From positions 3,684,501 through 3,748,500 of the forward strand of contig NZ_CP048410.1 of the NCBI RefSeq assembly GCF_019357415.1: 64,000 nucleotides of DNA, written 5' to 3'. Position numbers and translations under genes: made by a program. The first letter of the stretch is position 1. Every line of letters starts with the position of its first letter. This DNA comes from Gramella sp. MT6 (GTDB lineage Bacteria > Bacteroidota > Bacteroidia > Flavobacteriales > Flavobacteriaceae). The notes below the pieces were generated by a model that searched no databases, had not been told where the DNA came from, and saw nothing but the letters and a program-made list of their open reading frames with translations. This document shows, one piece after another, positions 11,415 through 47,776 of the stretch.

Positions 11415-11925
11415 ACTAACTGTAATTATCTGAGAGCCAATTTAATTATTTGAATAGAAAAAGAAAATTCAAAATTCCTGCATTTCAACTGTAACAATAT
11501 ACCTTTTATCCATACTTGTATATCGCTAGTACTCTAATTTTCTAAAAGAATTAAATAAAATTACCGGACCGTTTTAAAAGGCAAAGCAAATTGAGTAGGG
11601 TCGGTTTGCCTGCTTCAGGTCCGGTAATTATTTTAAAAAGATCTGAATCCCAGCCAATTCCTTTTTTACGGAGTTCTTTTTTACTAGATGCACCCCGATA
11701 ACAGGTGTAAAAGTCTTTACAGTTGTTAATTAATCAATAAAAGAAAGGCTATAGACCTGGTGCGCTGTCTGTATTCTAAAAATTTCTGTAACTTTAGAAT
11801 TCACTGAGGTTTAACGGTTTATAATCCCTTAAAAACCCCTCCCAAATTAAATCGATATCGTTATAAAGCCATCAGGTTTACATATAGCCCCGATTTTCCA
11901 GATAAAACCATTCATTGGATTAGGA
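11415..11925. other. Intergenic region with a two-tier stem-loop
   Basis: 511 bases upstream of the efflux operon. A large stem-loop lies at 11559-11629. The remainder is AT-rich with no supported frame. The efflux promoter must be in the last ~250 bases. TAACTTTA near 11790 resembles a -7 element but was not scored as a feature. Confidence 0.5.
11559..11629. repeat. Large two-tier stem-loop
   Basis: A perfect 12-bp outer stem (AATTACCGGACC at 11559-11570, GGTCCGGTAATT at 11618-11629) encloses a perfect 7-bp inner stem (AGGCAAA at 11579-11585, TTTGCCT at 11605-11611) with a 19-base loop. It sits 145 bases after the transporter stop. It may act as that gene's terminator, but it is bigger than needed and is not followed by a long T run. 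Confidence 0.6.
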
Positions 11926-14497: not shown

Positions 14498-17400
14498 ATG
14501 AGCGAGAATGGAGAAAAAAAGGTAAGACGTGAGGGAGTCATAGGCTACATGGCCAGAAACTCTATTGCCGCAAATCTTTTGATGCTGGTATTATTAGGTG
14601 GCGGTATTTATACCATGTTTAAAATTCAGAAAGAGGTCTTCCCGCAATTCCAATTGGATTATGTAGAGGTTAATGTAACCTATCCCGGCGCTGCTCCTGC
14701 CGAAGTGGAACAAGGCATCATACTACCCGTAGAGGAAGCAGTACGAGGTATCCAGGGAATCAAAGAGATCGTTTCCACTGCCAATGAGGGATCGGGAAAT
14801 GTTACTATCGAACTTATTGCTGGAACGAACAGAATGAAAAGTTTTCAGGAAATAGACCAGGCAGTGAGCCGTATAAGAACCTTTCCAGATGATATCGAAG
14901 AACCCCAGGTAAATTTACAAACCAGGCAAAGGGATGTGCTCGAAATAAGTCTTTTTGGGAATACTGATATCTGGAATTTAAGACAACTGGCAGAAAGGCT
15001 CAGGAACCGGCTTCTAAGTAATCCTAATATCACCCAGGTAGAACTAGGTAATGTGCCAGATTATGTGACCCATATTGAGATCCCTAGAAATAAACTTCGG
15101 GAGTACAATCTTACTTTAGGTCAGGTTGCAGATATTATTGAAAGATCTAGTCGAGACGTCCCGGCAGGTGCCGTGGAAACCGAATCTGGCGAGATCCTTC
15201 TAAGAATGAAGGAGCGGAAGCAATGGGCAGAAGAGTTTGGAAATATTACGATCGTTTCCTCCCCTTCTGGCGCCAAGGTGGTGCTTGAAGATATTGCAAA
15301 GATCACAGATGGCTTCGAAGAAACCGGATTTCATGGGCAGTTCAATCAGCAGCCTGCTGTAAGTTTAAGTATTTACAGGGTTGGCGACCAGTCCCCTCTT
15401 GAAATTTCTGAAATCACTAATGAAATTCTGGAAGACTTTCAATTACCTCCTGGGATAGAATATCGAATAGATAGTAACCGGGCCGAAGATTATCGTGAAA
15501 GATTATCGCTCCTAACAGAAAATGGTGTTCTGGCAATTATTATAGTAATGGTGATCCTAACTCTTTTTCTGGAATACAGGCTTGCCTTCTGGGTAATGAT
15601 GGGTATGGCCATTTCTTTCATTGGGGGAATGCTGTTTCTACCTCTGGTGGGAGTAAGTATAAATATGATCTCGATGTTCGGGTTTCTTATAGTGTTAGGT
15701 ATCGTAGTAGATGATGCTATTGTAGTAGGTGAGAATGTATACGAGTATAGGCAGAAAGGCATGAGTGCCATCGATGCTGCTATAAAAGGAACGCGGGATG
15801 TTTCTAGACCGGTTATTTTCAGCATAATTACCACGATCATCGCCTTTGTGCCTTTGCTTTTTATGCCTGGTGAAACCGGTAAATTCTGGTGGCCCTTACC
15901 AGTTGTGGTAATTGTGATACTTGCCATTTCATTATTGGAAGCATTGTTCATATTGCCCTCTCACCTGGCTCACCTTTCCATAAAAAAGAAGAAGGGGTTT
16001 ATCAGGAAATTTGAAGACTGGCAGGAAAAATTTGCCCGGGGCTTCGACAGGCTTATTGATAAATATTACCGGCCATTGCTAGACAAATGTCTTGAGTTTC
16101 GCTACATAACTCTTACCGCGGCTATAGCTCTTTTACTAATGGTAGGAGCATACGGTTATAGCGACCATATGGGAATGATCATGATGCCCGAGGTTGCCGC
16201 AGATGAGATTGAAGCCGGAGTTTCACTTCCGGTGGGCACTACTCCCCTACAAGCTGCCAAGGTAGCGGAAGAGATCACAGAGTCTACCAGGAAAATGTTT
16301 GAAGAACATAATTTATATGAAGTCGCTGAAGGAATAAAAACGAATGTGCGCGGTCAGAATTTTATAGATGTAGAGATCGTAATGCGCCCTCCTGACCAAA
16401 GAGAAATGACGGCCAGGGAAGTAATTGCACTATGGCGTGATAATATTGGAGATATCGAAGGAGTAGACCAGATCACTTTTGAGGCGGAAAGAGGTCCTGG
16501 TGGTTATCAGCAAGCCATTAGCGTAGACCTTAGTCATCCAGATATCAATGTCCTGGAAAGAGCTAGCCAGGCATTCCTGCAAAGAGTAAAGGCCTTTAAC
16601 AATACCCGTGATGTAAATGATAATTACAACAAGGGAAAGATGCAGTACGATTTCAAATTAAAACCTGAGGGCCGTAACCTGGGGCTTACCTCTTCTGAAG
16701 TTGGCCAACAGGTTAGAGATGCGTTTTATGGCGCTTTAGCCATGAGACAGCTAAGGGGAACCAACGAGATCGAGGTACGGGTAAAACTACCGTTGGAAGA
16801 ACGACGGGACCTTCAGAACCTGGAAAACTTTCTGGTGCGCACCCCTACAGGTGTGGAAGTTCCTTTGCTGGATGTGGTAGATGTAGAGCAAAGAGAAGCT
16901 TTCACCAATATTAACCGAAGAGATGGCAGCCGGGTGGTGACAGTAGGAATGGATGTGGAACCTGCGAATACCGTTTCCCAGGTGCTGGCTTCTATAGAAC
17001 AGGAAGTACTGCCGCAATTACGCGCCGATTTCCCCGGTATTACCTGGAGTTTTGAAGGCAGCCAGGCAGATATGAGAGAATCTACTTCCTCGCTCTGGAG
17101 TGGTTTCAGCATTGCGATGTTACTAATTTATGCCCTACTGGCCATAGCATTTAATAGTTATACTCAACCTCTTATAGTATTAATCGCAATTCCGTTTGGG
17201 ATCGTAGGTGCAGTGATTGGACATATTTTGCTTGGTTATGATCTTTCCCTGGTAAGTTTAATGGGTGTGATCGCCCTATCTGGTGTTGTGGTGAATGACT
17301 CCCTTATCATGATAGATTATGCTAATAAAAAACGAAAAGATAATTCGATATACGATTCTATTCACGAAGCAGGCATCAGGCGTTTCAGGCCAATTATGCT

Positions 17401-17623
17401 CACAACCCTAACCACTTTTGGAGGTTTGACCCCTATCATCCTGGAAACTTCGAGCCAGGCCTATTATCTTATTCCTATGGCAATATCTCTTGGTTTTGGG
17501 ATCGTGTTTGCAACTTCGATCATCCTGGTCATCGTTCCCTGCTTATATCTGATCTCCGAAGATATAAGACTATATGTTGAGAAAGGAAAAACCGTGGAAA
17601 AGCAACCGGTATCTCAACATTAA
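14498..17623 (+). CDS. RND multidrug efflux pump (AcrB/HAE1-like)
   Basis: 1041 residues with 12 membrane helices and two large periplasmic loops, the standard RND layout and length. Proton-relay acids are in helix 4 ([13 protein letters not shown]). The loops hold the porter motif [10 protein letters not shown]. The start is well set by AGGGAG seven bases ahead of ATG 14498, one of the few good Shine-Dalgarno sequences in the window. It would export drugs or other amphiphiles with proton antiport, together with the two genes before it. No regulator gene is adjacent. Substrate class cannot be read. Confidence 0.93.
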
Positions 17624-17685
17624 TTTCGGTTGTGCTTGGTCATATCTTTGATATAATTCTTTATGTATAAAATTTCCGGGACGAC

Positions 17686-17715
17686 TTGAAATGGCGTTAA
17701 AACTTAATTACTTTG
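17686..17715 (+). promoter_or_regulatory. Bacteroidota-type promoter of sbcDC
   Basis: TTG at 17686-17688 and TTACTTTG at 17708-17715 are separated by exactly 19 bases, matching the flavobacterial TTG-N19-TAnnTTTG consensus in all but one base. Transcription would start near 17722, leaving a leader of about 13 bases before the sbcD ATG. Confidence 0.7.
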
Positions 17716-17734
17716 CAGGGTAAGTTCCAAAAAC

Positions 17735-18955
17735 ATGAAAATACTCCACACTGCCGACTGGCATATTGGTAAAAAACTACATAAACACGAGCTAAGGGAA
17801 GATTTCGATCTTTTCATAAACTGGCTCATTGAGTATATCAAATCAGAAAATATTGATGTTCTATTGATATCAGGTGATATTTTTGACCTAGCGAATCCTT
17901 CTTCGGAAGCCAGAAAACAATATTACCAGGCACTGATAAAGCTTCAGAAATTAAATTGTAAGATCATCGCTACCGGCGGTAATCATGATTCTCCTTCTAT
18001 GCTGGACGCTCCCAAGGACCTGATGAAGGCTCTGGACATGGAAGTGATTGGGGGTTTACCCACAGATCTCGAAGAAACCCTAATCCCGGTTTATAATAGG
18101 AATCAGGAAATTGAGCTGGTGGTAGCCGCGATCTCCTACCTGCGGGATGCAGATCTTAGGTCGGGCGCAGGAGCCAGCAATTATGAAGACCGGCTGGAAG
18201 CAATAAGAGAAGGCATCAAAAATATTTTCAATTCTGCTGCGGAAATTTGCCAGGAAAAATATCCTGAAATTCCGGTTATCGCCATGGGACATTTATATAC
18301 GGCCGGGATCGAAACTTCAGAAAGCGAACGGGATATTCAAATTGGAAACCTGGCGGCATTCCAGGCTTCACAGTTTGGAGAATATTTCAAATACGTTGCT
18401 TTAGGCCATATTCATAAACCGCAGCGAGTGAATGCGGGTATACCAGTTCTCTACAGCGGTTCCCCTATTCCACTTTCATTTTCTGAAAGAAAAGATGAAA
18501 AAAGGGTACTGGTCCTTGATATCGAAAAAGGATATGAACCTGAAAGCATCAACCTGCCAAATTTCAGGCAATTGATAAGACTAAGCGGAAATCTGGAGGA
18601 ACTTCAGTTAAAATTGAATAGCCTTGAACATAAGTCTGAACTAACCTCTTTGATCGAAGTCGACCTGGTTGAGGAACAATATGATGCCCAAAAGATATAT
18701 GCGCTGGATAGCATGGTGAATGATTTTAACCGTGAAGGGTTCGAGATCGTAAAGCAACGGGTACAGTTCAGGAACAGGGTTAAAGGTGCAGCCGAACTTT
18801 ACAAGAACGAGCAACACCTTGAAGATCTGAAACCAAAAGATGTTTTTACTGAGCTTATCGCCCGGCATGAATATTCTGAGCAAGATAGGAATGAGATCCT
18901 CGCCGCTTTTGACGAGATTCTGGAAGAAGTTCAATCTGAAAATACTACGGAATAA
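17735..18955 (+). CDS. sbcD: Nuclease SbcCD subunit D
   Basis: 406 residues of the Mre11/SbcD calcineurin-like phosphoesterase family. Metal-binding motifs are all present: D8 and H10 (H-T-A-D-W-H-I-G), S-G-D-I-F-D, G-G-N-H-D-S, A-M-G-H-L-Y and L-G-H-I-H-K-P-Q, followed by a C-terminal capping and SbcC-binding region. With SbcC it forms an ATP-dependent nuclease that opens hairpins and cleaves blocked DNA ends, limiting palindromes and processing breaks. The TAA stop directly abuts the sbcC ATG, so the subunits are translationally coupled. Confidence 0.95.
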   Translation: MKILHTADWHIGKKLHKHELREDFDLFINWLIEYIKSENIDVLLISGDIFDLANPSSEARKQYYQALIKLQKLNCKIIATGGNHDSPSMLDAPKDLMKALDMEVIGGLPTDLEETLIPVYNRNQEIELVVAAISYLRDADLRSGAGASNYEDRLEAIREGIKNIFNSAAEICQEKYPEIPVIAMGHLYTAGIETSESERDIQIGNLAAFQASQFGEYFKYVALGHIHKPQRVNAGIPVLYSGSPIPLSFSERKDEKRVLVLDIEKGYEPESINLPNFRQLIRLSGNLEELQLKLNSLEHKSELTSLIEVDLVEEQYDAQKIYALDSMVNDFNREGFEIVKQRVQFRNRVKGAAELYKNEQHLEDLKPKDVFTELIARHEYSEQDRNEILAAFDEILEEVQSENTTE

Positions 18956-21900
18956 ATGAAGATCCTGAAAGTAGAATTCGAAAACATCAATTCCCTGAAA
19001 GGTTTTCACGAAATAGATTTCAGCAAGGAACCTTTTCTTACCAATTCACTTTTTGCCATTACCGGCCCAACGGGTAGTGGGAAGAGCAGCATCCTTGATG
19101 TGATCTCCCTTGCCCTGTTTAACCATGTGCCCCGTTTAGGCAAGATCACCAAAAATGAGATCCAGAGCAAAGGAGCGATACTTACCCGCAACCAGAAAAA
19201 TTCTATGGCGAGGGTTACCTATGAATGTAATAATGGTGTTTATAGCTCGCAATGGACCATTGAGATCAATAGAAATGGTAACCTGAATGATTATGAGATG
19301 GAGATCCATGATCATCATTCAGGTAAATTACTCGATCTGAAAAAGTCTATGGTTCCTAATAAGAACGAGGAATTGATAGGACTCAATTATGACCAGTTCA
19401 TCAAAGCGGTCTTACTGGCCCAGGGTGAATTCGCCCAATTTTTGAAAGCCAAAAAAGAGGAACGCGGCGAATTGCTCGAAAAAATTACGGGTACTGGAAT
19501 CTATCGCCGACTCGGAATCAAAGCTTTCGAAAAGAATAAAGAAGCAAATCGTGAGATCCAGGAACAACAGAATGAAATAAAGGTCATTCAAAATGACCTG
19601 CTGGAAGATGAAATCATTGATCAACATGAATCTGATCTAAAGAAAAAGACCAGTCAGTGCGAGGATCATCAGAAAGAGATCGAAAAGTTAAAAAAAGCTA
19701 TCCAGTTAAAAGTTGATATTGCAGCTCAGGAAAAGGAGATCCTTAAGCAGAAACAGATTGAAACAACAGCTACCCAAGAATTAAGGAAATTCGATGCTGA
19801 ACATGGATTCCCTTTAAAACAACATGAAAAGGTACAGGCAGAAGCAGATCAGTTAAGAGATTGGCATCTGTATAAGAATAATCTGAAAGAGGCCAGCGAA
19901 ACGAAAGAAAAGATCTCTGCGGCTATAAAGGATAACCTTGAGCAACAAACCCAGGTTTTAAATCAAAGCTCTGAACTAATTGGAGAGCCAGTGACCGCTG
20001 AAACCATATCAGGAAAACTGGATTCCTTCAGGGAGAAAGTTCTCGGACTACAGGAAACCAGGAAAAACAAGCTTAGTTCTTATGCTTCCAAAAAAGAACA
20101 GCTATTAACAGAACTGCGGGACACCGCGATCAATTTTAATGAGCAGGACCTTCAGGGCTCCATAATTAGTCTTACTTCAGAATTAGAAAATTCCGAAAAG
20201 AAAAAAGATATTCTCAATCAACATTTAAAAATTGAGGCCGGGGAAAACCTTGAAGAGGTTTCCCAAAAAACAAAAGCTGAGATCAAAACAGCACGTGAAG
20301 CTGCCAATATTTTTCTGAACTTTGAAACCCGGAATTCTGAAATTCGAAACATTGAGAAAGAACTGGAGAAAGATGAAAAGATCTTTGAGGAACTACCGCG
20401 GAAGATAAAGGATAAAAAAGCGACCTCAGAATCACTCAAACTCCAACTTCAGAATTCCGAACAAAGGAAAGAGCTCGAGTTGATGAAGGCGAGTCTGGAT
20501 GATCTTCGAAAGAAATTAAAAGACGGTGAAGCCTGTCCTCTCTGTGGTTCAGAACATCACCCCTATGCTCATCAGCAAGACCTTGAAGACAATGATTTGG
20601 AAAAGGAAATTGCGGAACTAAAGGCCAAATCCCAGGCAGCCGACAAAGAACTTCACCAGTTGGAAGCAGAATTCTTAAGCCTTCAAAAGCGCAGGAATGA
20701 GTTAAATAATAAGCTGAATACAATTCAGGAAGAACAGGAAAAAAGCAAGGCTACATTTTCAAACAATTTCAACGAGTTCGAAGGTTTCGAATCAAGAAAA
20801 GAAATAGAGTTGATCGCCGATGAACTGGAAAAAAAATTGGAGGTTATTATCGAAATTGATAAGCAGGTAAGAAGGTCCAGAGCGATCAAAAATGCCATTC
20901 CGCTCGCAAAAGAGTTAAAGGAGATTATTAGCGACGGAAAAGCATTGAAAAAAGAACTGGATGCCATCTATAGAGGGAACAATATTCAGAAAGACGTGCA
21001 GCAGATCTCCAATTCGTGGATAAAACTGCGAGAGAATTTTTCAAATTATCAGGAAAGAGCCGGTGAAAATGAAAAACAACTTTCAGATCTAAATAACCAA
21101 ATCGCAAAGATCGAACAGCATTTAGACCAATTCATTGCTCATACCGATTTTCAAAATATCGAAGAAGCCTGGAAAGCATTAATGTCGGAAGCTGAAGCTT
21201 CGAAACTTCGCCAGGAAAAACAACAGCTTTCTAAACAAATAGATGATGCAAGAGCATCTATTAAATTACTAAACGAGCAGCTCGAAAAATTGAAAAAACT
21301 AGATACCGAAACTGAAATAGAAAAGTTAAAAGAGCATCTTGAGGAAAAAAATGCGCTGTTCACCAGTCTGAGCAATGAATGCAAAGAACTGGAACGCAAA
21401 CTTAAAAACCAGCAGGAACGCCTAAAAAGAATGCAGGAACTACAGGAACAGATCACTGAAAAGGAAAAACAAACCAAACGATGGAGATTGCTGAATGAGC
21501 TTATTGGGGATTCCAAAGGGAAACAATTCAATGACTTTGCGCAGGACCTTACACTTTCACAATTACTAAAACTGGCCAACGTGCGATTGCAGGATCTTAA
21601 CGACCGTTACCTTATCGACAAACCCGAACCAGAAGAAGATGATGGCCTGGTAGCAATCGACGAGCATATGGGCGGGCAGCGCAGATCTGTGAAAACACTT
21701 TCTGGTGGCGAAACTTTTATTTTAAGTTTAAGTATGGCCCTGGCATTATCTGACCTCGCCTCGAAGAATGTGGAGATCAACAGCCTTTTCATAGATGAAG
21801 GTTTTGGAACCCTGGACCCCGAAACATTGGATCAAACCCTTGACACCCTGGAAAAGTTACAGGCAGAAAGTTCAAAAACCATTGGAATTATTAGTCATGT

Positions 21901-37921: not shown

Positions 37922-38674
37922 ATGATAAAAGCTGTGATCATCGACGATGAATTAAATGCCCAGAGTTTACTGGAAAAAACCCTGGATAGATATTTCCCAA
38001 ATAAATTCAATATTGCAGGTAAGTGCAATTCAGTAGACACAGGGGTTCTGGCGATTAAAGAACATGAACCAGACCTCGTGTTTTTAGACATACAAATGCC
38101 CGAAAAAAATGGTTTCGAATTATTCAAGTATTTCGATGTTATAAATTTTGAGGTCATCTTCACTACAGCTTATAATCAATTTGCCATTAAAGCGATCAAG
38201 CGCAGTGCGCTGGATTATTTACTGAAACCTATAAATCATCTCGAACTTGCTGAAGCCATTAAAAGGTTTGAATCTAAAAAGACCGGCAGTTCTGCTCAGA
38301 AAAAACTTTCTTTACTACTCGAGAACCTGAATGTAAATGACCAGAACGTGAGTAAGATCGCTTTTCCTACTGTGGATGGTTTTGAACTCGTACATTCCAA
38401 TCAAATCTTATATTGCAAAGCAGAGAGCAATTATTGCTGCATAAAGAAAATTGACGGTTGCACTAAAACGGCTGCGAAGACCTTAAAATTTGTAGAAGAG
38501 ATCCTTCCTGCCAATTCCTTTAAAAGGATACACAAAAGCTATGTTCTCAATTTAAATTATGTGGTTAGATACCATAAGGCCAATAAAGAAGTTGAATTAA
38601 CCAATGGAGAGAAACTTCCTGTCTCTTTCCGCAAAGAAGAAGAATTTATCAATGCGATTCTGCAAAACCACTAG
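37922..38674 (+). CDS. LytTR-family response regulator
   Basis: 250 residues: receiver domain (D8-D9, phosphorylation site D56 in F-L-D-I-Q-M-P, K in L-L-K-P-I) and LytTR DNA-binding domain from about residue 140 with F-K-R-I-H-K-S-Y-V-L-N. Its 3' end overlaps the start of the propeller-sensor kinase gene by 23 bases, so the pair is translationally coupled. TAGTTTTA (37910-37917) right before the ATG could be a -7 element of a nearly leaderless transcript. It is the second LytTR system of the window and not a close copy of the first. Confidence 0.9.
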   Translation: MIKAVIIDDELNAQSLLEKTLDRYFPNKFNIAGKCNSVDTGVLAIKEHEPDLVFLDIQMPEKNGFELFKYFDVINFEVIFTTAYNQFAIKAIKRSALDYLLKPINHLELAEAIKRFESKKTGSSAQKKLSLLLENLNVNDQNVSKIAFPTVDGFELVHSNQILYCKAESNYCCIKKIDGCTKTAAKTLKFVEEILPANSFKRIHKSYVLNLNYVVRYHKANKEVELTNGEKLPVSFRKEEEFINAILQNH

Positions 38675-41630
38675 ACTTTTCTTCTTACTCTTTTTATGGT
38701 TTAATATTGCGTTCTCTCAAAATTTTCCCAGCAAAAATTATAACGCTGCCAGTGAGTTGCCAAACAATACCGTTAGAGCCCTATTGTTGGACAGCGATAA
38801 TGTACTCTGGATTGGCACCGATAACGGGGTGGTAAAAAAGGAGAACGATGTTTTTAAATACTTTTTTGAAGAGGATGGCTTGGCCCTGAACAGTTGCTGG
38901 GCAATTGCTGAAGACAGGAATAAGAACCTGTGGTTTGGTAGTTATGGCGAAGGTATAAGTATTTATAATGGCGCGAAATTCCGGGTAATATCAGAGAAAG
39001 ATGGACTGGCTCATAATGAGGTCACCAAGCTATTCTCTCATAAGGACCACATGTTTATTGGCACCAGCGACGGGGTTTCCCTAGTCAACATTAACAACTA
39101 TGACGTTCACACCTTTAATATTCCGGAAAGCGAGAAATTGTTTAGAGTTCAGAACTTTTTTGAGGTCAAGGAACAAATTTATGTGGTTACCTATAGATCT
39201 GGCATTTATAAAATTTCAGGAAAGGACAATGAAAAGGTTCTAACCAAGGTCAATAACGACGATTATGTTTATTCCGTATTAAAAAATAATGACAGCATCT
39301 ACATCAGTAAAAAAGGCTTTTTCAGGAAAACTACGCTTACAGATTATTTAAAAAAGGGCGATACTATATCTTCGAAAAAACTTGGATATTCAATTATCTG
39401 GGATTACATAAAAACCAGGGATCAGAAAATTTTTGCGGCTGGCTGGGGTATATATGATACTAGTGGAGGGATTTATGAGGTCCAAAATGATGAACTAATT
39501 TCAAGGGCTTCAGACTTCAATATTTTCAGTAAAGAAGTGATCTCCCTTGCTTATGATGATAAATTTGAAAAGTTATACGTAGGTACCAGGGATGCTGGTT
39601 TGTTTGAAATCAAATTAGATCCTCTGGTAAAATTCCATAGAACTGAAGGTAAAAATATCATAGGCTTTGCCAGGACCGGAAACACTTCCGCAGAATTATC
39701 CAGCAATGGTATTCTTATAAAAGAAAAAGAGATCAAAATTAACCTGGATCAGCTTAAAAAATGGCAGGAGGAATATATAAAAACCACAAAACAACCATTG
39801 CCAAAACATGAAGATTCCTTTTACGAATTAGATTATTCCACCAGGGCCAGGGATATTCAGTTTTACGACATTAAAACTTACAAAGACGTTTATTGGGTAA
39901 ATACTAATATTGGGATATTCGCTATTGAGGAAAACGGAAAATTGCATCGATACCTGCCTCTACATTCAGAAGAGATCAACTTTACAATAAACGGAGATCT
40001 CATTGAAACTCATCCTTATGGTGGCGTAAGAGTCTACCAGGATCTGAACAAATTTGAGTATACCCACTTTTTACAGGATCATCCCGAAACACCTACCTTG
40101 GTGGTCAATAGCTTACAAACAAACCGTAAGACCTATTTTCTTTCGGTTTTCTCAGGACTTTATGCCTGGGAGAAGGATGAATTTAGCTCCTATATTCAAA
40201 GCGGAAGATGGAAAGAAAAAAAATTGAGACATATCACTTCCTTAGGAAAAAACCTCGCTATCTCTAATGAGTTTGGGGATGTATTCATTGTTAATGATGG
40301 AAAATCATTTGAAATCTTAAAGAAAATACCACGGGCAAAAATTGAGGGTAATACGATTTCATTCCTTAAGGAATACCAGGGAAGTTTGTTGATAGGAACT
40401 GAAAAAGGACTAAGCCTTTATAAAGATGATAGGTTTATATACTTAAATGAGGAACAGGGCCTGAAACAGCCATTTCTTAGCGGAGAAGTAGATGGAAACA
40501 GGTTAGTTATTGGAAGCAAGGATGGTTATTACACCATTGATCTTAACCGGGTAAGCGATGCCGAACCTTTGGTAAATGATCTGAATATCAAGGAAATTTT
40601 TATCAATAACAATGAGTTCGCATACGAAGAGTTCACTGGAGAAACGGAGATTGACCTGCCGTATGACCAGAATACTGTATTGCTGAAATTTAGCACCAAT
40701 GCACATCCTTATCCTCATAAATTACGTTATCAATATCGTTTGAATAATAGTGAGAACTGGAGTCGTCCCTTTCCAGAACCACAAATATTTCTGCCTTTTT
40801 TACCATCAAAAGATTACGAGGTTGATGTGAGGGTCTTAGATAAAAGCACTGGTTTAAGTTATACACAGTCTCTATTAAATATGGCGATTTTACCTCCATT
40901 CTATAAATCCTGGTGGTTTCTTTTAATCGTGATGTCCACAATTTCACTATTGATTTTTAGCATCTATAAATTTCAGATACGGCAAACCCGGAATTTTGAA
41001 ATGCAAAAGAGACTTATCCAGAAACGATTTGAAGAAACAAAAATGGAAGCTCTCCTGGCGCAGATGAATCCGCATTTTATCTTCAATGCGATGAATTCCA
41101 TACAGAATTATATCATGGACAGCGATATAGATAACGCCACCATTTTCCTGGGTGATTTTGCCAAATTAATTCGGCTCAACCTCGATCACTGCACCAAACC
41201 TAGTATTTTATTAGTCGAGGAAATTGAATATTTACGATCTTATATCCGTATCGAAAATACCAGGTTCAATAATAAAATTGAAGTGGTAATGAGCATAGAT
41301 CCTGAAATTGATACCTACGAGGTGGAGATCCCTACAATGATATTGCAAACCTTTGTGGAAAATGTATTTGTACACGCATTCCCCGGTGATATTAAAGATC
41401 CCAGGTTAGAAATTTCCTTTAAGCTATTGACAGAGGATCTGCTACAATGTAAAATTCAAGACAACGGTATTGGCTTTACTTCAGGTACAACTAATAAATT
41501 GCATGATTCAAAAGGGGTGCGCCTCGTCCAGGAGCGACTGGCGTTACTAGGTTATAATGTAGAGGAGGCCGTTCGCATAAATTCCAAAAAAAACAAAGGA
41601 ACTACAGTCATCATTACCTTAGAGATATAA
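38652..41630 (+). CDS. Propeller-domain sensor histidine kinase (LytS class)
   Basis: 992 residues from ATG 38652, chosen because it gives a proper signal peptide (R-F-C-K-T-T-R then a hydrophobic stretch ending F-S-Q). The longer reading from 38604 buries it. A large periplasmic part has repeated L-W-I-G-T-x-N-G-V and L-W-F-G-S-Y-G-E-G-style two-component propeller blades, then a Y_Y_Y-type beta domain (about 660-745), a membrane helix (about 755-777), a coiled coil and a His_kinase domain with H808 (Q-M-N-P-H-F-I-F-N). This is the sensor build of the hybrid polysaccharide sensors of Bacteroidota, but with LytS-type output and a separate regulator. The ligand is unknown. Confidence 0.9.
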   Translation: MRFCKTTRLFFLLFLWFNIAFSQNFPSKNYNAASELPNNTVRALLLDSDNVLWIGTDNGVVKKENDVFKYFFEEDGLALNSCWAIAEDRNKNLWFGSYGEGISIYNGAKFRVISEKDGLAHNEVTKLFSHKDHMFIGTSDGVSLVNINNYDVHTFNIPESEKLFRVQNFFEVKEQIYVVTYRSGIYKISGKDNEKVLTKVNNDDYVYSVLKNNDSIYISKKGFFRKTTLTDYLKKGDTISSKKLGYSIIWDYIKTRDQKIFAAGWGIYDTSGGIYEVQNDELISRASDFNIFSKEVISLAYDDKFEKLYVGTRDAGLFEIKLDPLVKFHRTEGKNIIGFARTGNTSAELSSNGILIKEKEIKINLDQLKKWQEEYIKTTKQPLPKHEDSFYELDYSTRARDIQFYDIKTYKDVYWVNTNIGIFAIEENGKLHRYLPLHSEEINFTINGDLIETHPYGGVRVYQDLNKFEYTHFLQDHPETPTLVVNSLQTNRKTYFLSVFSGLYAWEKDEFSSYIQSGRWKEKKLRHITSLGKNLAISNEFGDVFIVNDGKSFEILKKIPRAKIEGNTISFLKEYQGSLLIGTEKGLSLYKDDRFIYLNEEQGLKQPFLSGEVDGNRLVIGSKDGYYTIDLNRVSDAEPLVNDLNIKEIFINNNEFAYEEFTGETEIDLPYDQNTVLLKFSTNAHPYPHKLRYQYRLNNSENWSRPFPEPQIFLPFLPSKDYEVDVRVLDKSTGLSYTQSLLNMAILPPFYKSWWFLLIVMSTISLLIFSIYKFQIRQTRNFEMQKRLIQKRFEETKMEALLAQMNPHFIFNAMNSIQNYIMDSDIDNATIFLGDFAKLIRLNLDHCTKPSILLVEEIEYLRSYIRIENTRFNNKIEVVMSIDPEIDTYEVEIPTMILQTFVENVFVHAFPGDIKDPRLEISFKLLTEDLLQCKIQDNGIGFTSGTTNKLHDSKGVRLVQERLALLGYNVEEAVRINSKKNKGTTVIITLEI

Positions 41631-42036: not shown

Positions 42037-42068
42037 AAACCCGCAATTTTCATTGCGGGTTTTCTTTT
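42037..42068 (-). terminator. Probable original tRNA-Ser terminator, left behind by integration
   Basis: A perfect 11-bp stem (AAACCCGCAAT / ATTGCGGGTTT, 42037-42047 and 42052-42062) with T runs on both sides. It directly adjoins the displaced tRNA-Ser 3' end at 42069-42090. Before insertion of the element this hairpin would have followed the tRNA gene on the minus strand. Confidence 0.7.
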
Positions 42069-42090
42069 GCGGAGAAAGAGGTATTTGAAC
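42069..42090. repeat. Left attachment site (displaced tRNA-Ser 3' end)
   Basis: GCGGAGAAAGAGG, then T-ATT-T-GAAC. It matches the tRNA-Ser 3' end at 47691-47712 except for two bases (positions 14 and 18). It is the acceptor stem plus T arm only, with no anticodon half, so it is a remnant and not a tRNA gene. Confidence 0.85.
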
Positions 42091-42200
42091 TATATAATTT
42101 TAGATATAGCCTATTTTAAATAAACCCTTAATTAACAGGGGTTTGTTGATAATTACAACTATTATTTATATCCTCAACCGTTATTAAATTATATCTTTAC

Positions 42201-42220
42201 TGTCAACTATTCTGTCAACT
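42201..42220 (+). repeat. Left paired arm-type repeats (candidate integrase sites)
   Basis: Two copies of TGTCAACT at 42201-42208 and 42213-42220, spaced by 12 bases centre to centre. The same paired layout recurs at 47628-47647 in the same orientation. They lie 10-30 bases ahead of the integrase start, so integrase binding here could also repress its own gene. Confidence 0.6.
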
Positions 42221-42230
42221 GGTAAAAGTT

Positions 42231-43505
42231 ATGAGATCAACATTTAATTTGAAAGAACCCAAGAAAGATGGGGATTCCCTAATACTCTTTTCAGCTTACT
42301 TCAAAAACGAAGGAAGAAAATTTGTCTACTCTACCGGAGAAGTGATTAATCCTATCGATTGGGACTTTGAAAATAGACAGCCAAAGAACCTCAACGGGAG
42401 AACTGCAAAGTCAGATCAACAAAGAACTATTAAAAGACAGCTAGACAGGTATTCCAACTTCTTTACTGATACTGTAAACTCATTTAAGCTTTCAAATAGA
42501 GAGCTATTAATAGTTGACATAAAAGATGAATTTGATATTGAATTTAAACGTACTAAGGCAATCTCAAATAAGTTTTTCAGCGTTTATGATAGTTTTCTGT
42601 ATATGAAGAAAAGTGATTTCACAGATGAAGCCAATTCTGAAACTACCATAAAGCGATACGAATACAATAAAAAGTTATTAGAAGACTTTCAGGACCACAG
42701 GAAGAAAAAGATTCATTTCAACCAGATTAATCAAAGCTTTTATAACAAATTCATTCAGTATTGTATTGAAGAAAAAAAACATTCAGCCAATACACTTAGA
42801 AGAAATGTTGGTCTATTAAAAACATTCCTTTATTGGGCTTTAGAAAATAATCACACCTACAAAACAGATTTTCAGAAATTCAAAGCACCTAAAGCTCAAC
42901 AAACTGATGAAATTGCCTTAACAATCGATCAGGTTGAAAAAGTATTTGAATATGACCTAAGTAAAAAACCAAAATTAGAACGTGTAAGGGACTTATTTGT
43001 ATTTGGCTGTGTAACAGGTCTAAGAATAAGTAATTACTCTAAAATCAAGAAGAATGACATTCAGAACGGCAATATAAAAGTTAGGGATCAGAAGAATAAA
43101 GATAAGTCCTTAGAAATTCCACTTAATGACTTCTCAAATTACATTCTGAAAAAGTACGATTATAAGTTACCTACTATTTCTACCCAAAAATTCAATTCTT
43201 ATATCAAAGATGTTTTTGAAGAAATGGAATACAAAGACCGATTAAAGAAAACTATTAAGATAGGCAAAGACCTTATCGAAAAAGAAAATTTCTTCTATGA
43301 AAGAATCTCTTCACATACAGCACGAAGAAGCTTTATAACAATAATGAAAAATAAAAAGATTCCCGATAAAATTATTATGGGATATACCGGACATAGGAGT
43401 TTAGAAGTATTCAACAAATACTATAAACCTAATAACGAAGACAAAAAGGATTTTATGCAAACAGTATGGAAAATGAAAAATTCACCATTAAAAAAAGCTG
43501 AGTAA
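42231..43505 (+). CDS. Tyrosine site-specific integrase
   Basis: 424 residues of the Bacteroidota tyrosine-recombinase type. An N-terminal arm-binding domain (1-100), a SAM-like core-binding domain (about 115-215) and the catalytic domain with R265 (V-T-G-L-R-I-S), H362-x2-R365 (S-H-T-A-R-R-S-F), H388 (G-H-R-S) and the nucleophile Y397 (N-K-Y-Y-K). All catalytic residues are present, so the enzyme should be active. It sits at the left end of the element, as integrases usually do, reading inward from the attachment site. Its stop overlaps the start of the next gene by one base. Confidence 0.93.
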   Translation: MRSTFNLKEPKKDGDSLILFSAYFKNEGRKFVYSTGEVINPIDWDFENRQPKNLNGRTAKSDQQRTIKRQLDRYSNFFTDTVNSFKLSNRELLIVDIKDEFDIEFKRTKAISNKFFSVYDSFLYMKKSDFTDEANSETTIKRYEYNKKLLEDFQDHRKKKIHFNQINQSFYNKFIQYCIEEKKHSANTLRRNVGLLKTFLYWALENNHTYKTDFQKFKAPKAQQTDEIALTIDQVEKVFEYDLSKKPKLERVRDLFVFGCVTGLRISNYSKIKKNDIQNGNIKVRDQKNKDKSLEIPLNDFSNYILKKYDYKLPTISTQKFNSYIKDVFEEMEYKDRLKKTIKIGKDLIEKENFFYERISSHTARRSFITIMKNKKIPDKIIMGYTGHRSLEVFNKYYKPNNEDKKDFMQTVWKMKNSPLKKAE

Positions 43506-44869
43506 TGCATAGAAGAAAAAAGTTATTTGTTGATAAAGTAGAAGAAATAAGTTTTTGTGGCAATCAAATGTTTCAATTTACAGGGGGTGAATACGAAATT
43601 CCCTTTTCGATACAACCTACCGATTGTGCGCATAATTTTGAGAATTGCGAAAGCTGCAGGGAAAATCATGAATTATTGATGAAAGAGATTAGACCATTAA
43701 CTGATAAATTTCCATTTTGCTGCGAACAGCATGCAAAACTGACTGAGTTTCCCGATTTTAATATTGAGGATTATAAAAACTTAGACAAAGAAATTGCCGA
43801 TAAAGTATATTTCACTCATCATCACATTATAGATCGAATCGATAATGAAGATTGGTATGAAGATATTACTGACTATATAGCTTATGTAACTGAGAGTATT
43901 GGAACATTACCCCCCCAATATGGTGGATCATTTCAATTAGGAAGTTACTTTTTGTATGTACTGGAATTAATTAGAACTGTTGAAAATAGTATAACGTCAG
44001 ATGAAATCTCTAAAAAAGAAATCAAAATAAGAATTGAAAAAATAAAGGCTTTCATCAATAGTTTCAGAAAAGACAACCCTGAGAATAAAAACCCAGATCT
44101 GAATCTTTTACTAAGCACCTATCATAAATGGTACAAAATTTTCCCATTTGAGCTTACTTATTTCAATAATATAAGAGAAAGATATAGAACTAATATCCCA
44201 ATTCTTGCAGAGCCATTTCATTTAAACAGGTATTCGAATGTAAAGGTTGCTAAACTTCATACTAAAGAATCTCTAACTCAATCATTAATAGATACTACAA
44301 AGAATATTTTAAGCCAGGTGAATGGTAATTCACTACTAAAGGCAGGCTTGTTAACAGATACTGAGAAAATCAAGTATGACTTAATAATTAAAAAAAGGGA
44401 AACGGAATTATTTGAAATGCAACTCATTGACAATTCTAAACAATCCGGTTATATTAAAGTATTAAAGAAATGGTTGAAAGGTGAAAAGAAATTCATTGAT
44501 GAAATAACACCATACTTAAAAAATAAATCTCAGAAAAATAGAGAAGACAAACAGGAAATAACTGTTCTTAAATTCGCTCTATACATTTATTACATGCAAG
44601 CAGCCGGAAAGATCGAATATTTTGAAAATCATTCAAATGGTAAATTAGCAGCAATTGAAGAACTGTTGGAAGGAAGTAAGGTAATAGATACAACGGCTAA
44701 ATATTTTCAGATTGCATATAACAAAATTAGCAACCACAAGACTAACCGGATAGCTAACAATCAAATTTCTAATATATCATTTGTAGCAAAAAAGATGCTT
44801 AATAAGTATCCTGAAGCACGAAACATCGCTTTAGAAGAATTGAAATTAGCACAATCTAAAAATAGGTAA
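43505..44869 (+). CDS. Unknown protein coupled to the integrase
   Basis: 454 residues; family not recognised. The start overlaps the integrase stop (TAATG), so the two are translated together. The N-terminal 85 residues hold a Cys/His cluster (D-C-A-H-x-F-x-x-C-x-x-C-x4-H, then F-C-C-x-x-H) that looks like a zinc-binding module. The middle is helical and lysine/glutamate-rich. The C-terminal 100 residues (F-A-L-Y-I-Y-Y-M-Q-A-A-G-K, later Y-P-E-A-R-N-I-A-L-E-E-L-K) form a compact helical unit. No nuclease, relaxase or methylase motif is visible. Co-translation suggests a partner in recombination, control of excision, or mobilisation. Confidence 0.7.
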   Translation: MHRRKKLFVDKVEEISFCGNQMFQFTGGEYEIPFSIQPTDCAHNFENCESCRENHELLMKEIRPLTDKFPFCCEQHAKLTEFPDFNIEDYKNLDKEIADKVYFTHHHIIDRIDNEDWYEDITDYIAYVTESIGTLPPQYGGSFQLGSYFLYVLELIRTVENSITSDEISKKEIKIRIEKIKAFINSFRKDNPENKNPDLNLLLSTYHKWYKIFPFELTYFNNIRERYRTNIPILAEPFHLNRYSNVKVAKLHTKESLTQSLIDTTKNILSQVNGNSLLKAGLLTDTEKIKYDLIIKKRETELFEMQLIDNSKQSGYIKVLKKWLKGEKKFIDEITPYLKNKSQKNREDKQEITVLKFALYIYYMQAAGKIEYFENHSNGKLAAIEELLEGSKVIDTTAKYFQIAYNKISNHKTNRIANNQISNISFVAKKMLNKYPEARNIALEELKLAQSKNR

Positions 44870-44876
44870 CGGTATA

Positions 44877-44891
44877 ATGTAATAGTTACAT
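44877..44891. promoter_or_regulatory. Palindrome upstream of the HTH gene
   Basis: ATGTAA-TAG-TTACAT, a perfect 6-bp inverted repeat with a 3-base centre, 58 bases ahead of the HTH gene. It has the size of an operator half-site pair for a dimeric regulator. No function is proven. Confidence 0.35.
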
Positions 44892-44948
44892 CCCCCTTAC
44901 CTCAATCACTGACATATACTTTCGAAGAAATTCTAAAAGTATTTTGTC

Positions 44949-45224
44949 ATGAATAACCCATTTGAAACGCTAAACCAAAGATTAGCAAACATCGAAACTC
45001 TTCTTCTGGAGATCAAACACAAACCAGAGGATAAAGAAAAACCTGAAAACCTAACCGTAAAAGAAACAGCCAAACTTCTAAAGGTTTCTGAGCAGTCAGT
45101 TCACAACTACATCAAAAAAGGATTTATACCTGCTAAAAAAGTGGGCAGGATTCTTCTTATCAATCGTACCGATATTGATAATTCATTGGAAGGTGTGAAG
45201 TCCCTAAAATACAAACGTAGCTAA
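44949..45224 (+). CDS. HTH excisionase-like protein
   Basis: 91 residues: a short coiled coil (8-25), then a winged-helix/MerR-like DNA-binding domain (about 35-80) with L-T-V-K-E-T-A-K-L-L-K-V-S-E-Q-S-V-H-N-Y-I and the wing V-G-R-I-L-L-I-N. This is the HTH_17 type used by excisionases and small regulators in Bacteroidota integrative elements. It lies between the unknown gene and rep and probably directs excision or switches rep on. Confidence 0.85.
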   Translation: MNNPFETLNQRLANIETLLLEIKHKPEDKEKPENLTVKETAKLLKVSEQSVHNYIKKGFIPAKKVGRILLINRTDIDNSLEGVKSLKYKRS

Positions 45225-45263
45225 GATTCTTCTAACGGAATTATCCAATCAAAAATTAGGTAT

Positions 45264-46286
45264 ATGTATACATTAGCAGAAAACGGGACAGATAAAAAGG
45301 GACAGGATCACATATTTGTAACCGGTGAAGGTTCAGACCTCAGCAATAAAGAAGCCTTAAAAGGAAGGGCTAAGAGAAAAACTATTACTCAGTCTATGGC
45401 TTTAAGTCTTATAGATGTAGTTAAAGAAAAAGATGATTCTGAAAGAGAAAAAGCTTATTGGAATACATACTATTGTCAAAGTTCCATAACTACTTCAAAG
45501 GGGAAACTTTATGGTAAATATTGTAAAAATAGGTTTTGCACATTATGTTGTAGTATTCGCAAAGCGGAAATCATTAATAAATATTTACCAGTAATAAAAG
45601 AATGGGAAGATCCTCATTTTATAACCTTAACCGTAAAGTCCTGTAACCACAATCAGTTAAGATCTTATATAAGATCAATGAAGAGTACATTTAAGCGAAT
45701 CATTGAAAAGCATAAAAAGCAGGATCAGAGAGGAACGGGTGAGAAACTAATAGGTGTAAAATCTTTAGAATGCTGTTTCAATCCACAGAGAAGAACGTAT
45801 AACCCTCACTTTCATTTAATAGTTGCAAATAAGGCTATGGCAAATATAATCGTTGCCGAATGGATAAATAGAAGTAAGAAAGGAATGGTTTCACCCAAAG
45901 CGCAGTATATCCTGAAAACATTCGATGTAGAAAAAAACCTTATAGAAATTATTAAATATGGAAGTAAAATCTTTACAGAACCCGACTTAAAAAAGCGTTC
46001 CAAATCCAATGAAAATGAACGGCAGATGTATGTAGCTGCTTTAGATACGATATTAGCTGCAATGAAAGGAAAAAGAATATTCGACCGCTTTGGTTTCAAT
46101 TTACCGAAGAAAGCAAAAAATAACCTTTCGACTACTCAATTAATTAGTGATTTTAAGCAATGGGAATTTAATCCTGCCTTAGCAAATTGGCAGAATATAT
46201 ATAACGCTGAGGTACTTACAGATTATAAGCTTCCTTCAGACCTGGCTGCTATGTTATCAAATAATATTAATGGTAATATTAAATGA
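45264..46286 (+). CDS. Rolling-circle replication initiator (Rep_1-like HUH endonuclease)
   Basis: 340 residues. A Cys cluster (C87, C92, C95, C96 in K-Y-C-K-N-R-F-C-T-L-C-C) precedes strand motif F-I-T-L-T-V (119-124), the metal-binding H182-F-H184 in N-P-H-F-H-L-I-V, and the active-site block I-I-K-Y232-G-S-K235. The order and spacing match the Rep_1 family of pUB110-like plasmids, where the Tyr nicks the double-strand origin. The presence of a replication initiator in a chromosomally integrated element implies that the excised circle can copy itself. The origin was not identified. Confidence 0.85.
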   Translation: MYTLAENGTDKKGQDHIFVTGEGSDLSNKEALKGRAKRKTITQSMALSLIDVVKEKDDSEREKAYWNTYYCQSSITTSKGKLYGKYCKNRFCTLCCSIRKAEIINKYLPVIKEWEDPHFITLTVKSCNHNQLRSYIRSMKSTFKRIIEKHKKQDQRGTGEKLIGVKSLECCFNPQRRTYNPHFHLIVANKAMANIIVAEWINRSKKGMVSPKAQYILKTFDVEKNLIEIIKYGSKIFTEPDLKKRSKSNENERQMYVAALDTILAAMKGKRIFDRFGFNLPKKAKNNLSTTQLISDFKQWEFNPALANWQNIYNAEVLTDYKLPSDLAAMLSNNINGNIK

Positions 46287-46417
46287 AAGGATATAATGAA
46301 TCGGAAATGATTTAATTTCATTGAATATTAAAGTTATATTGCCATTTGGCTTAAGTTTTAATTAAAATTAAAGAATTACTCTTCAAAACATTTCAGCAAT
46401 TGACAGAATCAAAAAGA

Positions 46418-47536
46418 ATGGATTTAAAAACGCATTTTAATAGTGTCTTAGATGACACCCTAGAAAGAAATTTAAATGATACACCTAAGGATTATTTTAG
46501 TTGGGGACGTGATTCTCGTCACCGCCTTGATAATTCTGAAAAGATGCCTTGGCTACCACAAATAAAACAGTTCACTCTAAGGAAAATTGCATCTAAAATT
46601 AAATCCAGATTAAAAAGGAAAAGATATTCTAAAAAAGATGTTGTTGCTAATTTCAACGAGAAATATTCATGTTTTGAAAATTCATATCAACTTATGTCAG
46701 ATAATTATTCAAGACAGATTTTTACAGAATTGATTTTAATGGCTATTGTTAAGGAGAATCGTATGAGATTATCGTCTTTCTCAAAAGATTACATTGATTC
46801 ATATGAATTCGCGTCAAAAGAAATATTAAATTCTAAAGACTATCTTAATATATATGATTGGGAATTAGGCAAAGTCTCATTAGGAAACCCTAAAATTTCT
46901 ATATTTACTTCACCTGTTTTATTAGCAATGTATAACGTAGGAAGATTATATAGATATGAAAAGAATGATGTGATTGTTGAAGTAAATAAAGGTGATACAG
47001 TTATCGATGCAGGAGTAGGATGGGGTGATACCACAATTTATTTAGCTGCCCTTGCTGACCCTAAAAGTGGCGGCAAGTCTTATGCTTTTGATATTCTGGA
47101 AGAGGGAATGAATGCTTTGTCAGAACAATGCAAAATAAATAAAGAAATTAATAATATAACCCAGGTACTAAAAGCCCTTTCTGATAAAGATGATGAGACT
47201 GTTAATATATCATCTCCTTCCCCTGGCGCTAGAATAGTAAAAGAAATATCTTCTAAACAGGTACAAACAATAACTATTGACAGCATCTTAAAAGATGAGA
47301 AATTAGAAAGGATTGATTTTATTAAAATGGATATTGAAGGTGCTGAAATTCCAGCTTTAAAAGGCGCATCAAGGGCAATACAGGACTTCAAACCAAAATT
47401 AGCAATTAGTGTATATCATAAATGGGACGATTTATTAGAGATACCAAAACTAATCAATAGTCTAAGAAAGGATTATAAAATGTACTTGGATTGTACTACA
47501 GGATTCGGTGGTGAAGCAGTATTATATTGTATTTAA
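46418..47536 (+). CDS. FkbM-family methyltransferase (probable cargo)
   Basis: 372 residues from ATG 46418 (an in-frame TTG six codons earlier is less likely). The C-terminal half is a class I SAM methyltransferase: V-I-D-A-G-V-G-W-G-D-T-T (about 195-206), A-F-D at the end of strand 2, and the FkbM hallmark I-K-M-D-I-E-G-A-E (about 298-307). The N-terminal 150 residues are helical and basic and not recognised. FkbM enzymes methylate hydroxyls of sugars or natural products. As the last gene before the right end of the element, it is most simply a cargo gene altering a surface glycan. Confidence 0.85.
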   Translation: MDLKTHFNSVLDDTLERNLNDTPKDYFSWGRDSRHRLDNSEKMPWLPQIKQFTLRKIASKIKSRLKRKRYSKKDVVANFNEKYSCFENSYQLMSDNYSRQIFTELILMAIVKENRMRLSSFSKDYIDSYEFASKEILNSKDYLNIYDWELGKVSLGNPKISIFTSPVLLAMYNVGRLYRYEKNDVIVEVNKGDTVIDAGVGWGDTTIYLAALADPKSGGKSYAFDILEEGMNALSEQCKINKEINNITQVLKALSDKDDETVNISSPSPGARIVKEISSKQVQTITIDSILKDEKLERIDFIKMDIEGAEIPALKGASRAIQDFKPKLAISVYHKWDDLLEIPKLINSLRKDYKMYLDCTTGFGGEAVLYCI

Positions 47537-47627
47537 GAATTTAAATGTTTATTTTCTAACACAACATTTAAATCTACTCCAACTATAATAAATTTTAGAA
47601 TAGTTTTTAAAATAAACTCAACCGAAT

Positions 47628-47647
47628 TGTCGACTATATTGTCAACT
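47628..47647 (+). repeat. Right paired arm-type repeats (candidate integrase sites)
   Basis: TGTCGACT (47628-47635) and TGTCAACT (47640-47647), with the same 12-base period and orientation as the pair at 42201-42220; 17 of 20 positions agree between the two sites. The pair lies 44 bases inside the right attachment repeat. Confidence 0.6.
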
Positions 47648-47655
47648 ATAAAAAC

Positions 47656-47687
47656 AAAGCCCCATTATCATTGCGATACGGGGCTTT
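47656..47687 (-). terminator. Element-borne terminator now serving tRNA-Ser
   Basis: Stem AAAGCCCC (47656-47663) with GGGGCTTT (47680-47687) and an inner ATC/GAT pairing. On the minus strand a T-rich tract follows. It lies right after the tRNA 3' end but inside the element. Since it also has T bases on the other side, it can end the FkbM transcript too. Confidence 0.7.
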
Positions 47688-47690
47688 TTA

Positions 47691-47712
47691 GCGGAGAAAG
47701 AGGGATTCGAAC
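47691..47712. repeat. Right attachment site within tRNA-Ser
   Basis: GCGGAGAAAGAGG, then G-ATT-C-GAAC: the acceptor and T-arm end of the intact tRNA gene, repeated with two changes at 42069-42090. The crossover must have occurred within the shared 13-base block or the flanking matches. Confidence 0.85.
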
Positions 47713-47776
47713 CCCCGGAGGTGTGACCCTCAACAGTTTTCAAGACTGCCGCATTCGACCACTCTGCCATTTCTCC
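47692..47776 (-). tRNA. tRNA-Ser (anticodon UGA)
   Basis: 85 bases on the minus strand. The 5' GGAGAAA pairs with the 3' TTTCTCC, followed by discriminator G; CCA is not encoded. The anticodon loop CTTGAAA in the stem CAGT...ACTG gives UGA. A long variable arm (TTGAGGGTCACACCTC) is typical of class II tRNA-Ser, and the T loop is GTTCGAATC. Integration of the element rebuilt the gene end exactly, so the tRNA should remain functional. Confidence 0.95.

Follow-up and report, generated by a model that had tools for sequence, protein, structure and literature searches.

A tRNA-Ser(UGA)-integrated element with a Rep_1-family initiator in Gramella sp. MT6: a probable integrative rolling-circle plasmid

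The 3' end of the tRNA-Ser(UGA) gene of Gramella sp. MT6, a member of the Bacteroidota, harbors an AT-rich insert of 5.6 kb (42069–47690) with five genes, all on the plus strand, enclosed between two copies of the tRNA 3' end. Positions refer to the whole 64,000-nt stretch of contig NZ_CP048410.1 that was analyzed, here called the window; G and L numbers are our handles for genomes and loci. The systems closest to this element include the NBU-type integrative and mobilizable elements (IMEs) of Bacteroidota, the pSAM2-type actinomycete integrative and conjugative elements (AICEs) and the rolling-circle plasmids of the pC194/pUB110 family. In the NBU type, with NBU1 as an example of known gene order and integration site, a primase gene and canonical Mob genes lie downstream of the int/helix-turn-helix (HTH) block; the window element has neither a canonical relaxase nor a primase but a single Rep_1 gene instead, and does not display the NBU order. 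AICEs of the pSAM2 type have an integrase, an excisionase-type gene, a replication initiator and a tRNA 3'-end site used by a tyrosine integrase, all of which recur here. Their initiators, however, are of the RepSA, RepAM or RepPP types, whereas the present one belongs to Rep_1, and an FtsK/TraB protein is missing: the five element proteins, searched against Pfam, PHROGs, NCBIfam and PADLOC at E ≤ 1 (for the HTH protein in PHROGs, the best 25 of 30 families), contain no FtsK/SpoIIIE-type translocase domain. The resemblance to pSAM2 pointed out in an earlier reading of the letters alone (the sequence-only reading) thus holds as an analogy only. An island of the same genus (G018), its primase-like and mobilization-like genes replaced by Rep, fits the chassis better. 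We regard the insert as an integrative rolling-circle plasmid built upon a chassis of IME type rather than a pSAM2-type AICE, with a probability of about 0.78.

Other described systems share single traits with this element. NBU1, NBU2 and the other canonical IMEs of Bacteroidota also have a tyrosine integrase followed by small accessory genes, and in the available part of a 2017 review (PMC5704250) the few IMEs known from Bacteroidetes are all of the canonical-relaxase kind, no Rep_1-encoding IME is named and the replication of excised IMEs is described as never studied. According to the same part of that review, streptococcal IMEs combine an integrase with a rolling-circle replication initiator that replaces the canonical relaxase; these initiators are of the Rep_trans, Rep_2, PHA00330 or Viral_Rep families, 83 of 118 come with TcpA, and the elements differ from the present one in being neither of the Rep_1 kind nor from Bacteroidota. 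The 10K genomic island of Riemerella anatipestifer is likewise a tRNA-gene island of a Bacteroidota member, and its circle was detected by PCR; it differs in its site (tRNA-Arg) and its 53-bp attachment (att) sequence, and the portion of the report available states that the integrase alone is sufficient and mentions no Rep (PMC6764341). Plasmids of the pC194/pUB110 family share the Rep family (PF01446) and its HxH and ExxxY motifs, but the window element integrates and has its candidate origin at the rep 5' end, where the sequence is by eye unlike the pC194 origin given in the accessible part of PMC5037232. The Bacteroides plasmid pBFP35 (NC_011073.1) is among the best plasmid Rep matches listed (27.9% identity over 86%); it is a free plasmid with a pMV158/NBU-type MOBV protein, toxin-antitoxin genes and no integrase among its 6 listed features.

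The element is real and precisely bounded and its integration is ordinary; less ordinary are the Rep_1 module, the frozen candidate origin and the exchange with primase-like and mobilization-like genes. In the proposed cycle the integrase would bind the core and the paired arm repeats, and the HTH protein, acting as an excisionase, would tip recombination toward excision. There is a reasonable case that Rep then nicks the excised circle at a frozen 23-bp site at the rep 5' end, and we consider it likely that the circle replicates as a plasmid and subsequently reintegrates; self-replication of this kind is supported by the frozen candidate origin. Transfer would probably depend on a helper. That Rep doubles as a relaxase is a tentative proposal and the least certain step. 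If the reading as an integrative rolling-circle plasmid is correct, it describes a minimal integrative plasmid for Bacteroidota whose core, arms, excisionase and origin are all predicted from sequence, which might find use as a compact tool for integration or replication, and which indicates how restriction-modification systems could travel. It also raises the question of whether a single Rep_1 protein performs the replication as well as the relaxase function of a chromosomal island. More conjectural is the extension to a family spanning the Bacteroidota, in which rep would replace the primase-plus-mobilization block, the 23-bp site would be both replication and transfer origin, and the whole would act as a minimal vehicle shuttling restriction-modification systems between tRNA sites.

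Integration site and attachment sequences

The unoccupied site exists in three genomes of the same genus, belonging to other species, which match the predicted junction (the two flanks of the insert joined) at 124/126 (G009), 125/126 (G001) and 124/126 (G005) bases. In G009 (L005) and G001 (L007) a homologue of the left neighbor of the element (38604–41630, by its sequence of histidine-kinase type; 83% amino acid identity over 333 residues and 69% over 151 residues, respectively) precedes the same terminator hairpin, which the intact tRNA adjoins directly. G005 (L012) has the same hairpin and tRNA, with no homologue of 38604–41630 in the stretch examined. These sites bear out the sequence-only reading, which had proposed a 5.6-kb integrative element at this tRNA 3' end and had suggested looking in a close relative for an empty site with tRNA and hairpin adjoining. 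The tRNA-Ser neighborhood query found a match in each of the 24 genomes examined from the genus, although that in G020 is confined to 27 bp beyond the tRNA; rep occurs in one of the 24. The G+C content of the element is 30.9%, compared with 38.7% in the rest of the window.

The two att copies (42069–42090 and 47691–47712) are equal in 20 of 22 bases, in agreement with the near-repeat of the tRNA 3' end given earlier as the bounds. Their first 13 bases (GCGGAGAAAGAGG) are identical and, on the plus strand, which alone was checked, occur in the window at these two places only. The left copy reads GCGGAGAAAGAGG-TATTTGAAC and the tRNA copy GCGGAGAAAGAGG-GATTCGAAC, the inner half of the left copy being the side that faces the element. 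This inner half, TATTTGAAC, is also present in Aequorivita (L018), an uncultured Flavobacteriaceae bacterium (L021), Flagellimonas (L028) and a metagenome-assembled genome of Vicingaceae (L040), and a second form, GTTTTGAAC, is found in L026, L029 and G018. The outer half tracks the host tRNA: att position 7 is G in both copies of L026 and L028 and A in the window. Since the inner variant recurs across species and the outer half follows the host, the outer half is chromosomal and the inner half derived from attP, with the crossover in the shared core. The two mismatches are accordingly best read as the attP arm of the element itself and not as decay. Of the two causes previously offered for them, age is not supported, given the recurrence of the inner half, and a narrow crossover core comes close to this outcome, with the qualification that the inner half is an attP-derived arm. 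An element with broken genes, L065, shows no att mismatch. On the sequence evidence, the element integrated into the tRNA-Ser(UGA) 3' end via the 13-bp core, leaving the tRNA intact.

Paired arm-type repeats were compared in 12 elements with two cores, namely the window element, that of G018 and 10 relatives; Rep is missing from G018 and from L208. In all 12 the left pair lies 128–133 bp inside the left core and the right pair 63–66 bp inside the right core. Within one element the left arm deviates from the right arm at a mean of 2.2 of 21 positions, against 5.3/21 for arms of different elements and 6.7 for base-shuffled right ends, and none of 20000 permutations gave a sum as low as the observed one. 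At the right (second) cores of L195 (8849) and L196 (10463), in int-forward orientation, ARAGORN recognizes no tRNA; these may be tandem islands or tRNA fragments. A hairpin between the right arm and the tRNA, read by eye, is found in the window element, seven tRNA-Ser relatives and G018. The element displaces the host tRNA terminator and supplies a terminator-like hairpin of its own.

The Rep gene and its frozen 5' site

Membership of Rep in the Rep_1 (pC194-type) family is indicated by a PF01446 match above the gathering score together with the HxH (H182/H184) and ExxxY (E228/Y232) motifs, which, like a Cys cluster at residues 87–95, are invariant in 29 aligned sequences. With matches to PF00589 for the integrase and to PF12728 and TIGR01764 for the HTH protein, the tyrosine integrase, excisionase-like protein and rolling-circle Rep named as the core by the sequence-only reading are confirmed. 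Homologues of Rep at E ≤ 0.001 number 1140 of 2093 candidates. A scan of species-level genomes yielded 56 rep loci, each in a record whose title names a Bacteroidota lineage, and a scan of IMG/VR one more; in the family sample, rep is present in 17 of 397 genomes, in several as fragments. Phage records (50,697) gave no rep match at 1e-5. Plasmid records gave 284 Rep matches, all below 60% identity, and the 20 among them that were listed come from Bacteroides and Phocaeicola, at about 28% identity.

Int, HTH and rep genes are collinear within 3.2 kb in 22 of the 57 rep loci, so that the homologous block does recur elsewhere, as had been anticipated; the other 35 include truncated contigs, broken rep genes and integrases missed by the models used. 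Repeats of tRNA 3' ends were sought for minus-strand tRNAs and transfer-messenger RNAs (tmRNAs) only (L041 and L048 have plus-strand tRNAs). Such a gene is present at 20/57 loci; at 13 of these its 3' end is repeated in the vicinity of int, the genes being tRNA-Ser(UGA), -Asn, -Arg, -Asp and -Leu, and at the other seven no such repeat was found (L022, L025, L030, L031, L038, L051 and L062). The left end of L020 is unsure, with a better repeat 3.9 kb and a shorter one 0.2 kb before int. Intact Rep elements measure from 5.6 to 14.1 kb.

Two loci of this family show possible signs of multiplication. In L043 the stretches 8628–12230 and 17367–20969, 8.74 kb apart, are 99.94% identical over the 3603 bp compared, the second reaching the end of the available sequence; HTH and rep lie inside the copies and int outside, and either a recent duplication or an assembly effect may be involved. 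The rep contig of Apibacter muscae G8 (L072) is titled cov_1083 against cov_228 and cov_177 for two other listed contigs of this assembly, about fivefold, a weak hint of extra copies or of a collapsed repeat.

The 5' end of rep carries a 23-bp stretch, ATACATTAGnAnnAnnnnGGACA, that is frozen at the DNA level. In a codon alignment of 48 rep genes with open reading frames (ORFs) of at least 280 residues, pairs sharing the same residue at codons ~2–10 are codon-identical in a proportion of 0.93, where the codon usage of these genes would predict 0.33 (z 5.3), and outside this cluster the best-scoring rep segment reaches z 0.8. The largest codon-identity excess is 0.60 in rep and 0.15, 0.23 and 0.16 in INT (31 genes), ORF2 (19) and HTH (37), none of which has a stretch frozen in a comparable way. 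The motif is exact in 31/48 rep ORFs, and 51 of the 57 loci carry it, with at most two mismatches, close to the start listed for rep; the loci are related by descent, so that these counts are not independent. Among the six remaining loci, L053 and L060 have it further inside a longer ORF and L041, L047, L063 and L073 are without it.

In another six loci (L022, L024, L025, L031, L039 and L069) the rep frame is open, with no ATG, GTG or TTG between the motif and a stop at most nine codons upstream, and protein similarity nonetheless begins at residue 3; rep may start there at an unusual codon or further in. In L072 the motif precedes the long rep ORF and is not in its reading frame, and in others it sits as far as 124 nt (L062) within the ORF as listed, the listed starts of which may not be the true ones. 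No significant hairpin is formed. The no-start loci and L072 argue that coding alone does not explain the motif. Relatives of the integrase provide a further comparison, based on 20 stretches (from 36 matches in 35 genomes at 1e-60, that of the window included) and the G018 element. At ≤2 mismatches the motif is present in 5/5 Rep-bearing chassis (0, 0, 0, 1 and 2 mismatches), a result not independent of the 57 loci because L192, L193, L194 and L196 are taken as the same genomes as L021, L019, L026 and L039. It is absent from 16/16 chassis without Rep (best 3–5 mismatches, both strands considered; the sequences of L204 and L206 are short), 15 of which have a recognized HTH gene. A site for the integrase or the HTH protein would be expected in both groups, so the motif, found only together with Rep, behaves as a Rep site and is probably the Rep nick site.

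Shared chassis and alternative explanations

In chassis without Rep the slot after the HTH gene is occupied by DUF3987/DUF6371 (L197, L198, L207 and G018), a Rep_3 initiator (L205), a DUF5906/VapE-type protein (L211) or an AAA_25 protein (L199), and in some others by unassigned genes. Since the chassis (att sites, int, ORF2 and HTH gene) is common to elements with other replication modules, rep is one swappable module. The 20.3-kb element of G018, located at the same tRNA in a genome of the same genus, encodes an integrase 57% identical to that of the window and shares with it an HTH_17 gene and the att design; its gene order is HTH_17, DUF3987, DUF6371, a 154-residue gene with no Pfam match, DUF5712 and then type I restriction genes assigned by similarity. 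We take DUF3987 and DUF6371 to be primase-like and DUF5712 to be mobilization-related, and with these genes the island can be likened to NBU-type IMEs. The Rep of the window occupies the place that these genes have in that relative.

The occurrence of DUF5712 and its partners in the slot of Rep at the same tRNA also suits an IME in which Rep_1 acts mainly as a relaxase, the motif is the origin of transfer, a helper provides the conjugation machinery and replication is secondary. Rep_1 initiators of three Firmicutes plasmids serve as relaxases with ICEBs1, as described in the available parts of PMC5714925 and PMC5704250. Three coupling-protein matches in the host genome point the same way. Rep keeps, however, the ExxxY pair, the Glu of which has a recognized role in pC194-type replication initiators, and among the five proteins the search revealed neither a coupling protein nor an accessory mobilization protein; moreover, known mobilizations by such initiators use TcpA-type coupling proteins, as far as the accessible text of PMC5704250 goes. 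An element of this kind is rather unlikely. The position of the motif at the start of rep could instead mean that it serves the regulation or translation of rep (as an operator, as a leader or through codon constraint in the start region) and is not an origin, and the six loci lacking a start codon, with similarity from residue 3, could mean special initiation. Yet the placement in L062 shows that the motif is not tied to the start codon, L072 has it out of frame, a significant hairpin is lacking, and the 16 chassis without Rep do not contain it although 15 have the HTH gene; we hold such a signal to be unlikely.

A small element in a tRNA gene with int, an excisionase-type HTH and a replication gene might also be a phage satellite, or a phage-inducible island, that relies on a helper phage for packaging, all the more as one rep locus comes from IMG/VR and the HTH protein weakly matches, over its HTH stretch, phrog_57 (terminase small subunit, 0.00047) and phrog_1668 (tail assembly, 0.067). 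These matches are far weaker than the HTH/excisionase matches of the same protein (9.2e-10 to 6.9e-8) and confined to the HTH, and no other packaging or structural family was detected in the five proteins. The sequence-only reading had stated that translocase, relaxase and phage genes are not visible; relaxase, coupling-protein and FtsK families were not found at E ≤ 1, and the two weak matches are the only ones with a packaging or tail label. With no rep match among the phage records, one IMG/VR locus against 56 from genomes and a variable size of intact Rep elements, a satellite is highly improbable. No circular form has been seen, as would be the case for a decayed, immobile island; on the other hand, all five genes are open, the motif residues of the integrase and Rep are intact, arms, core and terminator-like hairpin are all in place, and rep is present in one of 24 genus genomes while relatives have the empty site. 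Decay is thus improbable, and the integrative rolling-circle plasmid remains the preferred reading.

Accessory genes, cargo and the host genome

The features of the element and its borders are collected in Table 1. The integrase contains the motifs GLRIS, HTARR and GHRSLEVFNKYY, which fit the R, HxxR, H and Y pattern of tyrosine recombinases. For ORF2, 67 homologues were counted at E ≤ 0.001 (ORF2 among them); at E ≤ 1 it matches neither a Pfam nor an NCBIfam family, one PHROG matches at E 0.2, and its AlphaFold model (predicted local distance difference test score 84.6) gave no convincing fold match. Residues C51, C72, C73 and H76 of ORF2 are nearly invariant. Because the gene sits between int and the HTH gene, its location suggests a role in recombination control.

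Table 1. Features of the integrated element and its borders in the window
Feature	Position	Strand	Support
Original tRNA-Ser terminator hairpin of the host, now stranded beyond the left end of the element	42040–42059	.	Same hairpin directly 3' of intact tRNA in G009, G001, G005
Left att, identical core GCGGAGAAAGAGG; outer part from the host	42069–42081	.	Identical to tRNA 3' end
Left att, element-derived inner half TATTTGAAC (attP arm side)	42082–42090	.	Same variant in L018, L021, L028, L040
Left arm-type repeat pair (ACTGTCAACTATTCTGTCAACTG), candidate integrase arm-binding sites, just upstream of int	42199–42221	+	12/12 elements; co-varies with right arm
Tyrosine recombinase (integrase), 424 residues	42231–43505	+	PF00589 2.2e-15; PHROG integrase 2.7e-28
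ORF2, 454 residues, uncharacterized chassis gene between int and HTH; conserved Cys/His in N-terminal part	43505–44869	+	
HTH_17/excisionase-type DNA-binding protein, 91 residues; candidate recombination directionality factor	44949–45224	+	PF12728 4.2e-12; 'excise' TIGR01764 above cut-off
Rep_1-family rolling-circle initiator, 340 residues	45264–46286	+	PF01446 4.7e-11, 43.1 bits against cut-off 33.2
Frozen 23-bp motif ATACATTAGnAnnAnnnnGGACA, 16 fixed bases; candidate Rep nick site/double-strand origin	45268–45290	+	Synonymous-site freeze; goes with Rep
FkbM-family methyltransferase, 378 residues, TTG start as listed; cargo gene	46400–47536	+	PF05050 7.3e-20
Right arm-type repeat pair (ATTGTCGACTATATTGTCAACTAT)	47626–47649	+	12/12 elements
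Element-borne terminator-like hairpin	47659–47684	.	Read by eye
Right att, tRNA 3' end	47691–47712	.	
tRNA-Ser(UGA), intact	47691–47776	-	ARAGORN; Rfam RF00005 59.7 bits

The fifth gene, of the FkbM family, is exchangeable cargo, in place of which relatives carry other genes; the best relatives of its product are about 54–62% identical, and the few named ones come from Gammaproteobacteria, Algoriphagus and Vibrio. In 12 bounded relatives, 68 ORFs of at least 90 residues without a chassis label form the cargo set, some of them being ORF2 equivalents missed by the model. Restriction-modification genes occur in 8 of the 12: HsdM, HsdS and HsdR in L020, L021, L026 and L040 and HsdM/HsdS in L046 (labels resting on similarity to L021, itself assigned by size, order, Pfam and PADLOC tallies), a type III system in L018, a HindIII-like type II system in L028 and an ISP type in L033, where the genes lie between int and HTH and not after rep. 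L029, L036, L042 and L056 have no restriction-modification gene among the best 25 families tallied, their ORFs not having all been scanned singly.

The genome of Gramella sp. MT6 itself (G000) contains further integrase and mobilization-type genes. At G000:C1 ~1980.6–1986.8 kb (L157), beside the tmRNA gene, a PF03432 relaxase, a CHC2/Toprim primase and a VapE-like protein are encoded, and this locus is read from its gene content as a separate mobilizable-type element. A second integrase, with 37% identity, is located at G000:C1 1951938–1953122, and the three VirD4-type coupling-protein matches (PF02534) above cut-off, at G000:C1 3203492, 3316293 and 1409621, represent possible helpers.

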